A DNA stretch of 64,000 nt, taken from Desulfovibrio sp. UCD-KL4C. Its GTDB lineage: Bacteria > Desulfobacterota > Desulfovibrionia > Desulfovibrionales > Desulfovibrionaceae. The notes under the pieces are model-generated. The model was not told the origin of the DNA. It ran no database searches and saw only the letters and a program-made list of their open reading frames with translations. This document shows, piece by piece, positions 17,457 to 21,982 of the stretch; within the stretch, counting starts at the first letter, position 1; each line of letters starts with the position of its first letter. The stretch is from the NCBI RefSeq assembly GCF_006210265.1, contig NZ_VCNC01000001.1, positions 1,250,843 through 1,314,842 on the forward strand, written 5' to 3'. The position numbers were made by a program, and so were the translations under genes.

Positions 17457-18605
17457 CTATTCACCGGCTCCGGTAGAATTTGTCTTACTATCTTTAACTT
17501 TAATAATCGCTCCGGGGAAAAGCCGCAACTGACCGTCAGTGATAATTGTTTCGCCTCCTTTAAGGCCGGAGGTCACAATATCAACTTTTCCTGATCTACG
17601 GTTAATTTGGACAGGTTGCATATTAACGGTCTTGTTTTGATTCATTATCCAGACAAATTTACCTTCAGGGCTGTCACAAGTTGCCTGCATAGGAATCTGG
17701 ACTACATCTTCTTCAAACAGTTTCAGCATAATATCAACGTAGTTACCTGGCCAGAGCGAATGGATGGTATTTGGAAAAGTCGCTTGCATCCAGACTGTTC
17801 CGGTCGTGGTGTCAACGTTGTTATCAATAAATGTCAATGTTCCATTATCAGGAGTAATAACTCCATTATTGATAGCCAGTACACTTAATGTGCTGTTGGC
17901 TGAATATTTTTGTACTTTAGCTAAATATTTTTGAGGAAGATAAAAATCAACGGCTATTGGTGAAATCTGATTAATAGTTACAAGTTTATCTTTATTCTCT
18001 TCAATCAAGTTACCAGCTGTAATGTTAAGGTAGCCTGCCAGCCCGTCGATTGGTGATTTTATGAAACAGTAGTGTAAATCATTTTGAGCATTTGCAAGTT
18101 TGGCTTTTGTTACAGATATAGCATCACTTGCCGTTTTCATTTCAAGACGTTTTTGTTCAAACTGTTCAGCACTGACAACTTGTCGTCTTACAAGATCACG
18201 GTAGCGGTTATAATCCTTTTCTGCTTTTTCATACTTTGTTGTGTCTGAAGCTAATTCTGCTTTATACTGGCGAATACTAGCTTCAAATGGAGATGGGTCC
18301 ATTGTGAATAATTGCTGACCTTCTGTAACATAGTCCCCATTTACAATCGCGACCTTGCTTAAATATCCGGTTACCTTTGCACGAATGGTAATGGAGTTAA
18401 TAGCCTTAACTGTGCCGATTGCCGTTATATAGTATGGAGTTATTTTTTTTACAGATTTAGCGATTGTAACTGGAGCAGGCGGAATAGTTCTTGGAGCTTC
18501 TTTGTCGCCGCACCCTTGTATCGCTCCCATTATGCTGAGCATCAGAGCTATGAGGATGAGATTACAAAATATTTTTACCGATCTTGATAAATGGATTGAA
18601 ACCAT
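17457..18605 (-). CDS. RND pump periplasmic adaptor (membrane fusion protein), lipoprotein
   Basis: The 382-residue protein has an N-terminal hydrophobic segment ending in a lipobox-like IQGC, so lipid anchoring to the inner membrane is likely. It then shows the adaptor order: a half lipoyl motif (TIRAKVTGYLSKVAIVNGDYV), an alpha-helical hairpin (about 115-170, DTTKYEKAEKDYNRYRDLV), the second lipoyl half (FIKSPIDGLAGYLNITAGNLI), then a beta-barrel. It bridges the RND transporter and an outer-membrane channel. It is first in the operon; the divergent fused kinase gene starts 242 bp away. Confidence 0.92.
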   Translation of the reverse strand: MVSIHLSRSVKIFCNLILIALMLSIMGAIQGCGDKEAPRTIPPAPVTIAKSVKKITPYYITAIGTVKAINSITIRAKVTGYLSKVAIVNGDYVTEGQQLFTMDPSPFEASIRQYKAELASDTTKYEKAEKDYNRYRDLVRRQVVSAEQFEQKRLEMKTASDAISVTKAKLANAQNDLHYCFIKSPIDGLAGYLNITAGNLIEENKDKLVTINQISPIAVDFYLPQKYLAKVQKYSANSTLSVLAINNGVITPDNGTLTFIDNNVDTTTGTVWMQATFPNTIHSLWPGNYVDIMLKLFEEDVVQIPMQATCDSPEGKFVWIMNQNKTVNMQPVQINRRSGKVDIVTSGLKGGETIITDGQLRLFPGAIIKVKDSKTNSTGAGE

Positions 18606-18847
18606 AGGGATGTGCTCCTTGATCTAGGTATATTTGTAAAACATTTTACCTCAAATAATTAAAATTTAAAAGACTGTTTTTACAAATTAATGTTTAGAAG
18701 CTATATTTAGAAACGTTTGTGAATTTATTTGTTAAATAACTTGATCAGAAGCCATTTTACATGCACATAGTATCCGTAATTTTATTTAGAAAGGTGTATG
18801 AAGCTGTTTTTTAACATAATACTAATAAAATAAAGACAAGATATATT

Positions 18848-20650
18848 ATGCAATTAGAAAGAATTTCAAAAATTCAGTATGTTGACGGGGTTCGTTTTCG
18901 AAGAGGTGTTGTTGCAGCTGCAAGCCGTCTCATTGCGAATTCCCCTCATCTTGATGCGATCAATGTTTTTCCTGTTCCTGATGGAGATACCGGAGCCAAC
19001 ATGGCCGGAACTATGCGTAGCATAGTAAAGTCTTCAGGTGATTCGCTGGAAAAATCGCTGGAAAAGATGAGTGCTTTGATTGCTGAATCTGCATTAAATG
19101 GAGCAAAGGGTAATTCCGGAGCAATTTTAGCGCAGTTCCTGTGTGGTTTTGCTGAAGGTGTAAAAGATATGAGAAGACTTTCACCTTCTGATTTTGCCAG
19201 AGTTGCATCACTTGCCGCCCACCGTTCGTGTGAAGCTATTTCTGATCCTAAAGACGGTACAATAATAAGTGTTATTAAAGACTGGTCCGCGCATTTGAGT
19301 TCCAGATCACATGAATACAAAGATTTTCATCATATTTTTTCTGATTCACTTCATTATGCTCAAAAATCGGTGAAAGCGACAACTGAAAAGCTGGCTGAAC
19401 TTAAGTCTGCCGGAGTTGTTGATGCCGGAGCTTTGGGATTTGTGTACCTTCTTGAGGGTATTGTTGATTTTCTTGAAAATGGAAAAATTGAAGAAAGTTT
19501 TATAGCTGATAACGATCCATTATATAAAGTAGACGGTGTTCAAAATAAGGTTACAGTTGAGAAACTGGAATACAGATATTGTACCGAATTCCTGCTTAAA
19601 GGATCTACCATAGATAAAAAAGCTGTTCGGGATGCTATTTCAGACATGGGTGACAGCCTCATTGTTGCAGGTTTACCTGATTGTGTGAAAGTTCATATTC
19701 ATACTAATGATCCTGACAGTGTTGAAGATATTGTTTCCGCTTTTGCCACTGTAGATAAGCGTAAAGTCGATGATATGCTGGTGCAGCATAAACGGTTACT
19801 TGCAGACACCCGCAAAGTAGGAATTGTAACTGACAGTACCTGTGATATCCCGGCTGAAATTATTGCTGAATATGATATACGGGTAGTCCCGCTTAGACTT
19901 ACAATTGACGGGCATGAATACATTGATCATGTTACTTTGGCTCCTGAAGAATTTTACAGAATGCTTCCTAATGCTGAAAAAGCTCTAACATCTCAGCCTT
20001 CTCCCGGTGATATGAAAAGAGTTTATTCAGCGGCTTGTGCTGACTATGAGAATGTCGTTTCAGTACATGTTGCACGGGTCTTGAGTGGTACATACCAAAA
20101 TGCCCTTACTGTGAGCAGAGAGTATGACACCGTTACAGCTTTTGACGGCGAGAGGGTAACCGGAGGGTTGGCTCTTTCTGTTCTAGAGGCTGCCAACGCA
20201 GCTGAAAGAGGGGCATCTGTTTCGGAAGTTGCCATGATTACGGAAAGAGCTATTAAAAATGTCAAAGTTTTTGTTACTATGGATACTCTTGATTATGTTG
20301 TAAAAGGCGGAAGGATGAGCAAAGGGCAAGGGATTATTGCCAAGGCTCTAAATATTAAGCCTATTATCGAATTTGCAGGCGAAGGTCATGTCAACACAGT
20401 GTCTAGGGCTTTTGGTCGCAAGCGGCAGGAAAAAACTTTTATCAGACTTGTAAGTGAAGCTCTTAAAGGTAAGAATAATTTGCGTTATGTTATAACACAT
20501 GCTGATGCACCGGAAAAAGCTGATAAAATTTCTGCTATTATGAAAAAAAAATATGGTGTTGATCCTCTTTTCATAGGTGCAGCCTCTCCTGTTATCGGTT
20601 TACACAGTGGCCCTGGAGCTTGCGCTATCGCTTTTCTTGCTGATGATTAA
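18848..20650 (+). CDS. DhaL/FakA-like and DegV/FakB-like fusion protein
   Basis: This 600-residue protein joins two modules normally encoded separately. Residues about 15-215 are a DhaL-type kinase domain with the nucleotide/Mg motif PVPDGDTGANM (Asp45, Asp47) and AKGNSGAILAQF. Residues about 225-315 resemble the FakA middle domain (YRYCTEFLLKG, GDSLIVAGLPDCVKVHIHTNDP). Residues about 322-600 are a DegV fatty-acid-binding fold, beginning IVTDSTCDIP (Asp329) and containing LTSQPSPGD and DTLDYVVKGGRMSKGQG. In Firmicutes FakA phosphorylates fatty acids held by FakB, so this looks like a one-chain fatty-acid kinase; that activity is inferred. It is monocistronic, with a terminator 47 bp downstream. 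Confidence 0.88.
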   Translation: MQLERISKIQYVDGVRFRRGVVAAASRLIANSPHLDAINVFPVPDGDTGANMAGTMRSIVKSSGDSLEKSLEKMSALIAESALNGAKGNSGAILAQFLCGFAEGVKDMRRLSPSDFARVASLAAHRSCEAISDPKDGTIISVIKDWSAHLSSRSHEYKDFHHIFSDSLHYAQKSVKATTEKLAELKSAGVVDAGALGFVYLLEGIVDFLENGKIEESFIADNDPLYKVDGVQNKVTVEKLEYRYCTEFLLKGSTIDKKAVRDAISDMGDSLIVAGLPDCVKVHIHTNDPDSVEDIVSAFATVDKRKVDDMLVQHKRLLADTRKVGIVTDSTCDIPAEIIAEYDIRVVPLRLTIDGHEYIDHVTLAPEEFYRMLPNAEKALTSQPSPGDMKRVYSAACADYENVVSVHVARVLSGTYQNALTVSREYDTVTAFDGERVTGGLALSVLEAANAAERGASVSEVAMITERAIKNVKVFVTMDTLDYVVKGGRMSKGQGIIAKALNIKPIIEFAGEGHVNTVSRAFGRKRQEKTFIRLVSEALKGKNNLRYVITHADAPEKADKISAIMKKKYGVDPLFIGAASPVIGLHSGPGACAIAFLADD

Positions 20651-20697
20651 GATTTTTATTTTTACTCTGCGGTAGTTTATACTGTTTTAAGTATAAG

Positions 20698-20749
20698 GCC
20701 CTAAACCTGATTCGCAAATGCGTATTAAGGTTTAGGGCTTTTCTTTTTT
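20698..20749 (+). terminator. intrinsic terminator
   Basis: GCCCTAAACCT (20698-20708) pairs with AGGTTTAGGGC (20728-20738), then TTTTCTTTTTTG. The arm resembles the terminator at 9685. Confidence 0.9.
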
Positions 20750-21253
20750 GTTTTTCATTCTTGCACTCAAACTAAACTGGATTATTACATATTTTGTTAA
20801 TTATGTTATAAGGCTTTATTTATATTTATTATACTTTAAGAGTTGGTAGTTTTATTAAAAAAAGTGTAAATATTTTGGCCTTAGATTTGATCTGTTTTTG
20901 TGAATTTACTTTTTTGTAGATTTTGCAGGGCTAGTCTTCAAAATAATAAGTTCACAATTAAAGTCTGTCAGGCATTGGTGTGACGGCGATTGTAAGAATG
21001 TTTTCTTATTAAGAAAAAAATATTTTTGTAATTTTTTCTAAAAATGGAAGATTTAAAATTTATTTATACATAAATGGAAAATACTGCTGATTTCTTGACT
21101 TTTTCTTAGTTTAAGCTATGAATAATTGTCTTTATTGAATTCTTGGCTTTGTTTTTCAGGATTCAAAAATGGTTACTGAAAGGTTAAATCATCTTTTTTG
21201 AATAGTAGCCTGTCATGAATTAATAACCAGAATGACAGTTGGGGTTAAATTAT
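20750..21253 (+). promoter_or_regulatory. promoter and leader of the polar amino acid ABC operon
   Basis: This stretch has no gene. A promoter candidate is TTGACT (21095-21100) with TATGAA (21117-21122), spacer 16. A hairpin follows: CTGTCAT (21210-21216) with ATGACAG (21232-21238), 7-bp perfect arms and a 15-nt loop. It ends just before the GGGG ribosome site (21241-21244) of the ATPase gene, so it could be an operator or a translation-control structure. The rest is AT-rich with no signal I can name. Confidence 0.45.
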
Positions 21254-21982
21254 ATGTCGATGATTGAAATTAAGAATCTTCACAAATGGTATGGTGATTT
21301 CCACGTTCTTAAAGGTATTAATGATCATGTGGATAAAGGTGAAGTTCTTGTAATCTGCGGACCTAGCGGGTCCGGAAAAAGTACTTTTATTCGCTGCATA
21401 AACAGGCTTGAAGATTATCAAAAAGGGTCCATTATTTTTGATGGAAAAGATATTCTGGAGAAGAGTGTTAATATAAATGAATTGCGTGCTGAAATCGGTA
21501 TAGTCTTCCAGCAATTCAATCTTTATCCCCACCTTACAGTATTGAAAAATGTTACGCTTGCTCCTCAGAAAGTTCGCAATACTCCGCGCGAGGAAGCTGA
21601 AGAGACTGCTCTTAAGTTGCTTGAAAGAGTAGGTATTCATGATCAGGCTCATAAATATCCCGCAGAATTGTCCGGCGGACAGCAGCAACGTGTCGCTATC
21701 GCCAGAGCTTTGGCAATGAAGCCGAAAGTGATGCTTTTCGATGAACCCACATCTGCGCTTGATCCAGAAATGATTAATGAAGTTTTAAACGTTATGAAAG
21801 ACTTGGCCCGCGAAGGAATGACCATGCTTTGCGTTACGCATGAAATGGGATTTGCCCGCGAAGTTGCCGATCGAGTTGTCTTTATGGATGGCGGTGAAGT
21901 TATCGAGCAGGCTCCTCCAGAGGAGTTTTTCAAGAATCCGCAACATGACAGAGCTAAGCTGTTTTTGAAGGAGATATTGTAG
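21254..21982 (+). CDS. polar amino acid ABC transporter ATP-binding protein (GlnQ/GltL type)
   Basis: The 242-residue ATPase powers uptake of a polar amino acid. It has Walker [10 protein letters not shown], a Q-loop region [13 protein letters not shown], the signature LSGGQQQR, Walker [15 protein letters not shown], and the H-loop CVTHEMG. Length and these motifs match the PAAT family. ATG 21254 is chosen; TTG 21239 would overlap the GGGG site. The binding-protein gene follows after 57 bp, then two permease genes, giving a complete importer. Confidence 0.95.

Follow-up and report, generated by a model that had tools for sequence, protein, structure and literature searches.

The window, by which we mean the whole stretch of 64,000 nucleotides of Desulfovibrio sp. 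UCD-KL4C that was analysed, contains a gene for a protein of 600 residues (Table 1), with an ATG start and an end coordinate that takes in the stop codon. In Gram-positive bacteria the fatty acid kinase is normally made up of two separate proteins, FakA and FakB. An earlier note, made from the sequence alone, had proposed that a DhaL-type kinase, a FakA-like middle domain and a DegV fold lie here in one chain, with the DegV domain where FakA would have its C-terminal domain. Pfam identifies a Dak2 domain at residues 42-206 (E 3e-37), a FakA-like_M domain (PF21645) at 241-316 (E 2e-21) and a DegV domain (PF02645) at 323-598 that spans positions 1-279 of the 280 in the profile (E 9e-76), each match exceeding its curated Pfam cut-off. 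The NCBIfam DegV model TIGR00762 is also passed (278 bits, cut-off 99.7) and agrees, as does the predicted fold. The DegV domain follows the middle domain directly, through a very short link, and no match to FakA_C (PF13684) or to the Dak1/DhaK family was found in the protein by Pfam up to an E of 1. Scores with the NCBIfam models FakA_VfrB (177 bits, cut-off 975), YloV (276 bits, cut-off 396) and FakB1 (117 bits, cut-off 350) are far below the cut-offs, as expected, because the protein is not canonical either as a FakA or as a FakB. A single open frame with the order kinase, middle domain, DegV is conserved in homologues down to about 32% identity with the window protein; this frame and its domain order are far past chance and no assembly artefact. 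Within its own genome (3.93 Mb) the protein is the sole match to itself and the sole DegV match. In a scan of positions 18400-21300 promoter and terminator sites were no commoner than in shuffled sequence (11 versus 9.3 and 2 versus 1.7, respectively).

Table 1. Positions in the window of the gene, its domains and the residues compared with FakA and FakB
Feature	Position	Strand	Basis
Whole gene, one-chain FakA-FakB-like protein, 600 aa (P0001)	18848..20650	+	ORF and Pfam
DhaL-type ATP-binding kinase domain, about residues 8-211	18869..19480	+	Pfam Dak2 42-206; structural match to FakA_N
Mg2+ loop NVFPVPDGDTG, residues 39-49; N39, D45, D47 = S. aureus FakA N32, D38, D40	18962..18994	+	alignment
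Kinase-middle domain linker, probably flexible, about residues 212-240	19481..19567	+	pLDDT <50 at residues 217-233
FakA-like middle domain, residues 241-316	19568..19795	+	Pfam PF21645
Cys245 = FakA Cys240	19580..19582	+	C in 89/89 fusions
His283 and His285 = FakA His282/His284	19694..19702	+	H in 89/89 fusions at both
Complete DegV domain (predicted FakB-type fatty acid carrier), residues 323-598	19814..20641	+	Pfam DegV; Z 29.6-35.6 to solved FakB/DegV
Thr381 = FakB1 Thr62, fatty acid carboxylate network	19988..19990	+	alignment
Ser413 = FakB1 Ser95	20084..20086	+	S in 88/89 fusions
Arg489 = FakB1 Arg173, required for catalysis in FakB1	20312..20314	+	alignment
Phe522 at FakB Arg205 position	20411..20413	+	alignment
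His586 = FakB1 His270	20603..20605	+	alignment

An AlphaFold2 model was built from an alignment of 89 rows (mean pLDDT 88.9, pTM 0.66), a model from ten homologues (pLDDT 66) being set aside. Apart from the linker, only residues 1-3 have a pLDDT below 50. The comparison with FakA and FakB that the earlier note had suggested bears out both halves of the protein. In VIA-align 2, residues 5-218 match S. aureus FakA_N in five entries with Z about 34 and 1.1-1.3 A over 208-212 residues, while approximately residues 320-600 match solved FakB and DegV structures, several of them solved with fatty acid; with T. thermophilus 2dt8 this part aligns end to end (Z 34.6, 2.1 A over 274 residues). The top Foldseek match is the FakA of the S. 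suis FakA-FakB2 complex at an rmsd of 23 A, an agreement that holds domain by domain only. Similarity to E. coli DhaL in the kinase domain gives a Z of 25, and that of the DegV part to DhaK is distant (Z about 16).

Residues were compared among the fusions closest to the window protein (clade A, 89 rows), canonical FakAs and stand-alone DegVs, and also in a second, divergent family of kinase-middle-DegV fusions from other families of the phylum, in which the active-site residues are kept (clade B, L213-L238). The clade A alignment leaves out genus loci L002, L004, L007, L008, L009, L011, L012, L014 and L015, the fragment L020, L021-L023 and L028, whose contig is as long as the one from which L017 comes. 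The clade B set has 26 rows, L236 being partial, and does not include G297, G141 and G243; L236 is too short for the DegV set and L053 for the DhaL-middle set. The stand-alone DegV set holds 35 sequences from 7 two-component genomes and 3 from Desulfobacterota-type relatives, and omits the truncated G121:C49 and the 44-aa piece G121:C23.

The earlier note had said that missing DhaL metal residues would count against its reading; they are present. The Asn, Asp and Asp of the Mg2+ loop are found in 88, 88 and 87 of the 89 fusions, the remaining rows having a gap or X. In PMC11617999 the Mg site of S. aureus FakA is Asn32/Asp38/Asp40, and mutagenesis papers name D38/D40 and C240/H282/H284 as essential, the latter in PMC9136124. 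This site of the middle domain is interpreted as a catalytic triad in PMC9136124 and alternatively as a Zn site in PMC11617999. All 26 clade B rows keep the kinase and middle-domain residues apart from a single R at H285, and 39 canonical FakAs keep them save two rows at the Cys.

The residues of the DegV domain largely match those of FakB1. In FakB1 a network Ser171-His270-Thr62-carboxylate-Ser95 is described together with the catalytic Arg173 (PMC8892158); the FakB1 numbering used here was moved onto the window protein by motif positions and alignments, without the FakB1 sequence itself as reference. The Arg173 position is R throughout, in all 89 clade A rows, all 25 of clade B and all 38 stand-alone DegVs. 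The counterpart of Ser171 is Gly487, and Gly also occurs in 28 of the 38 stand-alone DegVs. At the His586 position 59 of the 89 fusions have H, 16 have N and 6 a gap; N, S, Y and Q together account for 24. Bacteroidota, Bacillota, Thermotogota and Synergistota supply most of these 24 rows, a hint that the carboxylate may be handled in another way there. As to a fatty-acid pocket, the lack of which the earlier note had named as a second ground for doubt, the DegV fold is complete and four carboxylate or catalytic residues are present, which speaks for a predicted carrier and answers the question of the pocket itself only in part.

The chief difference from FakB lies at the Arg205 position. This residue is called 'completely conserved' and central to bilayer contact and FakA binding in PMC8892158, and it pairs with Glu548 of FakA_C according to PMC9136124. 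In the 39 FakAs of our comparison set, 37 have E as the C-terminal residue, FakA_C ending in Glu548. Clade A fusions have F in 58 of 89 rows, R in 7 and others in 24, while stand-alone DegVs have R in 36 and K in 2 of 38, 35 of which are drawn from only 7 genomes. Clade B fusions have R 20, H 4 and K 1 (n=25), so the change is a mark of clade A and not of fusion as such. An explanation of the loss by the absence of FakA_C holds only partly, since clade B also has DegV after the middle domain and yet mostly keeps R. Phe522 fits a carrier freed from docking on FakA_C, and predicts a membrane contact unlike that of FakB.

The architecture is not peculiar to this organism but is found in many phyla. 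In a contig scan of GTDB species with alignment, at least 571 relatives were confirmed, the best 80 of which each cover about 560 or more of the 600 residues. The phylum labels of these 80, a similarity-ranked and uneven sample in which one phylum is over-represented and in which labels of MAGs may mislead, are Marinimicrobia (Fidelibacterota) 28, Bacteroidota 12, Bacillota 5, Pseudomonadota, Acidobacteriota and Aminicenantes 4 each, Synergistota, Thermodesulfobacteriota and KSB1 3 each, and Thermotogota, Cloacimonadota and Spirochaetota 2 each, plus others. One Marinimicrobia MAG (G085) carries, as well as a clade A fusion (L038), a protein of 786 aa with the reverse order (L205:314-2674, minus strand), DegV at 3-306 and Dak2 at 343-510. 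The stretch that follows has, by eye and without a Pfam match, a Cys and His-x-His pattern like that of the FakA middle domain, and there is a weak PAS match under the cut-off.

PlsY is an acyl-phosphate-consuming enzyme. When 541 ORFs around these 80 loci (the best 80 of at least 571) were clustered, the commonest neighbour family was PlsY-like, present at 32 of the 80, always downstream and on the same strand. In 21 of the 32 the PlsY-like ORF starts 5-60 nt past the matched stretch and in 31 no gene lies between, the exception being L068 with one. All five PlsY-like ORFs scanned contain PF02660, and four pass the equivalog cut-off of TIGR00023, that of L068 being the one that does not. Marinimicrobia account for 23 of the 32 loci; the rest are labelled Acidobacteriota, KSB1, Aminicenantes or Thermotogota, or are unplaced. 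This adjacency is the strongest functional hint that we have, and ties the family to the use of acyl-phosphate. The statement in the earlier note that the neighbours give no hint thus holds for the window but not for its relatives (32 of the best 80 of at least 571); in the window's own lineage no PlsY match was found near the gene, in flanks that were mostly of 1.5 kb.

Second in frequency among the neighbours comes a DUF1295 membrane protein, encoded within 4 kb at 19 of the 80 loci (best 80 of at least 571; L065-L105). It lies downstream at 14 of these and upstream at 5, and the loci belong to Bacillota, Bacteroidota, Synergistota, Thermotogota and other groups. Both of the two scanned have PF06966. 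In L068 the gene order is fusion, DUF1295, PlsY. A small membrane protein is found upstream on the same strand at 15 of the best 80 of at least 571 loci, including L036, and the one scanned is PF04367 (DUF502).

In the genome of the window PlsX and PlsY are both present, located elsewhere. PF01553 is matched twice, by a frame of 271 aa and one of 632 aa, both of which we take to be shorter than PlsB; the frame of 632 aa presumably is an OlsBA-type fusion. Among 13 PF00501 matches several have full acyl-CoA-ligase length, and these may provide another route for free fatty acids. Two very long frames with AMP-binding domains (3206 and 1830 aa; G000:C3:502445-509910) are perhaps a nonribosomal peptide synthetase cluster.

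Taken as a whole, the earlier interpretation stands as far as the fused FakA/FakB-like make-up is concerned, with kinase and lipid-carrier residues in place and no separate FakB in the genome, while several of the points that it implied are corrected. The one-chain protein is real and conserved, and very likely functional. It is probably a self-contained fatty acid kinase in one chain that would deliver acyl-phosphate to PlsY (or PlsX), a reading drawn from sequence, predicted fold and gene neighbourhood. We infer fatty acid binding, kinase activity, the substrate, a dimer, the geometry of hand-over and the source of the fatty acid. The loss of the docking Arg, Gly487 in place of Ser171 and the lack of His at the His586 position in part of the family are points against it.

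In S. aureus FakA the middle domain is the dimerisation domain. We suggest that the DegV domain would load a free fatty acid with its carboxylate exposed, and that the ATP-loaded DhaL domain, on its flexible linker of about 30 residues, would swing onto the loaded DegV, the two meeting in cis or across a dimer. Because the link between middle domain and DegV is short, DegV must reach the kinase through a large domain motion or across the dimer, and the kinase is the likelier moving part; the geometry between kinase and DegV is beyond the reach of the model at its pTM. Phosphorylation would yield acyl-phosphate, which PlsY could spend to acylate glycerol-3-phosphate or PlsX could convert to acyl-ACP. 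With the carrier tethered, the FakB-docking C-terminal domain of FakA would be unneeded. PMC9136124 reports that S. aureus FakA without this domain stays active, with an elevenfold higher KM for FakB1 (0.99 versus 0.09 uM). This suggests that FakA_C serves affinity, and tethering could replace docking by giving the same local concentration. The replacement of the FakA C-terminal domain is a smaller jump than the earlier note implied, FakA_C being already a relative of FakB, with two FakB-related subdomains that lack the three segments roofing the tunnel (PMC9136124).

It is quite possible that the protein is a fatty acid kinase for internal fatty acids from lipid turnover or repair, a variant that is compatible with the self-contained kinase. 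S. aureus FakB1 is reported, in PMC8892158, to activate fatty acids from phospholipid turnover. In the genus the locus is fixed, its neighbours being the membrane fusion protein of a divergent RND efflux operon and the ATPase of an ABC transporter, one to each side (15 of 15 other loci checked), away from fatty acid uptake genes; the FadL-type porin encoded in the genome, however, makes uptake of long-chain fatty acids possible. Exogenous fatty acids and recycled internal ones are equally possible as the substrate.

An alternative is that the substrate of the kinase is a different hydrophobic acid or a protein and not a fatty acid. The altered docking Arg, the differing His270 counterpart in part of the family and the frequent DUF1295 neighbour (19 of the best 80 of at least 571) would agree with this. 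The adjoining plsY genes (32 of the same 80), the kept carboxylate-contact residues and the resemblance in fold to DegV structures containing fatty acids argue against it, and we consider it unlikely.

It could also be that the DegV domain is a structural or docking part like FakA_C, whose position it occupies and which is structurally related to FakB (PMC9136124), and that a separate FakB carries the fatty acid. FakA_C is, however, without the tunnel segments (same source) while the fused DegV is full length, so it looks carrier-like, unlike FakA_C. The genomes also offer few candidates for a separate carrier. We searched 50 genomes, picked for diversity from the best 80 of at least 571, for PF02645 and PF13684. 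Full-length FakA_C (E 1e-73 or better) and full-length stand-alone DegV were found in the same 7 genomes (5 Bacillota, 2 Thermotogota), and in this search neither was found at full length in the other 43 (Fisher p 1e-8, n=50, or 8e-8 with G127 counted as stand-alone, both uncorrected for kinship). Weak PF13684 matches in 17 of the 43 (E 7e-12 to 8e-4, many over the family cut-off) each fall on a DegV stretch, because FakA_C and DegV are kin. Exceptions within the 43 are a DegV fragment of 202 aa in G127, the reverse-order fusion of G085 and a partial DegV in a frame of 591 aa in G093; G081, G099, G116 and G123 have two fusions each. Full-length FakA_C is thus met only beside a separate DegV in these 50 genomes.

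In the genus a DegV match was found in 16 of 17 genomes (the other, G009, is 84% complete), as a single match inside the fusion; the 16 genomes at least 90% complete are the basis of this statement. The exception is G006, in which a second DAK2-DegV fusion, 31-37% identical and split by a frameshift into two frames, lies on a contig of about 15 kb (G006:C31, L022/L023). A neighbouring ORF on this contig resembles, by eye, a secretion-system C-terminal sorting domain protein of another phylum, and the contig may therefore be a contaminant. From the genus and from the 43 genomes, the fused DegV is the sole full-length DegV in most carriers examined, and a role in docking alone is very improbable.

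The gene itself matches in all 17 genomes of the genus, in G009 only as a contig-end fragment. That the window protein is a decayed or inactive relic is hardly credible, since it is full length in 16 of 16 near-complete genus genomes (63-91% identity in the other 15) with its synteny and all tested active-site residues kept, even though it is patchy beyond the genus, where 2 of 29 family genomes have a match and, in a sample spread evenly over the phylum, 0 of 16 further family members.

In other families of the order a fusion was found in 1 of 32 genomes, and one further genome has DegV alone. Of 395 genomes in the even phylum sample 35 have a match, one being the window's own; clade B contributes fusion-type matches at 25-30% identity, 26 of them near full length and 3 shorter; in 3 genomes a FakA-sized gene lies next to a separate DegV, and 2 have DegV alone, one with an internal stop. 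The FakA-sized genes beside a separate DegV (L210-L212, in G468, G318 and G432), classed as canonical by size and neighbouring DegV and not by a PF13684 scan, are apparently a two-gene Fak locus beyond the Gram-positives.

Phylogenetic trees were built from DhaL plus middle domain (85 rows), DegV (93) and the kinase only (66, with eight DhaL as root). In the first, clade A (support 72), canonical FakA (55) and clade B (100) each fall on one side of a branch, and the window protein groups with the rows of its genus, with Nitratidesulfovibrio and with two further members of the family (100*). In the DegV tree A, B and the stand-alone DegVs are similarly apart, L106 aside. With a midpoint root the DhaL-plus-middle tree places clade B outside clade A and canonical FakA, which would favour one-chain Fak as ancestral. 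With the DhaL outgroup the kinase-only tree is rooted among the canonical FakAs and the two fusion clades group together (94/99), a topology in favour of a single later fusion; this tree has a very long branch to the outgroup, drew a program warning of long branches meeting, and its bootstrap had yet to settle. Fused and stand-alone DegVs receive about equally weak scores from the FakA_C profiles. An ancestral one-chain Fak with FakA_C as its vestige is not supported, and the fusion may have happened once or twice.

The self-contained fatty acid kinase would, if the one-chain form is active, give an acyl-phosphate route for free fatty acids to members of Marinimicrobia, Bacteroidota, Acidobacteriota, Synergistota and KSB1 and to some relatives in the Desulfovibrionales. 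It is probable, judging from the sequences, that a widespread family turns free fatty acids directly into building blocks of membrane lipids in many Gram-negatives. More tentatively, we speculate that there may be a branch of fatty acid kinases, mainly in Gram-negative phyla, that works without shuttling, in which Arg has become Phe in most members and the enzyme would be docked at the membrane and pass acyl-phosphate straight on to PlsY, whose gene is often the neighbour. Free fatty acids would then enter phospholipid by way of acyl-phosphate where acyl-CoA or acyl-ACP synthetases were thought to be relied on. The one-chain enzyme would permit a structure of the active complex of kinase and carrier that avoids the transient contact of FakA and FakB, and would probe the true roles of the FakA C-terminal domain and of FakB Arg205.

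No description of a FakA-FakB or DAK2-DegV fusion was found among the titles and abstracts listed from the openly licensed literature, where a phrase search likewise gave none, and the fused family is apparently unstudied. DegV and DhaK were reportedly treated together in studies of the EDD domain from about 2005. Like dihydroxyacetone kinase (DhaK/DhaL/DhaM), the window protein has a DhaL fold in its kinase and a distant DhaK similarity in its DegV part; unlike it, it has no Dak1 match and its scores with the DhaL-type NCBIfam models are far under the cut-offs, and in the kinase tree the DhaLs branch outside all Fak sequences. With FakA (YloV/VfrB; S. aureus, S. suis 7W7H) it shares the succession of DhaL-type kinase and middle domain, the N/D/D metal loop, the Cys/His/His site and a predicted kinase fold that matches FakA_N, but FakA ends in the FakB-docking, tunnel-less FakA_C (PF13684) and the window protein in a complete DegV. 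With FakB and DegV (S. aureus FakB1/FakB2, 2dt8) it shares the full-length DegV fold and the counterparts of Thr62, Ser95, Arg173 and His270, but its DegV is fused to its own kinase, has Phe522 for Arg205 and is alone in the genome. Set against the known FakA-FakB system it is a variant in one chain, new with respect to the openly licensed literature searched.
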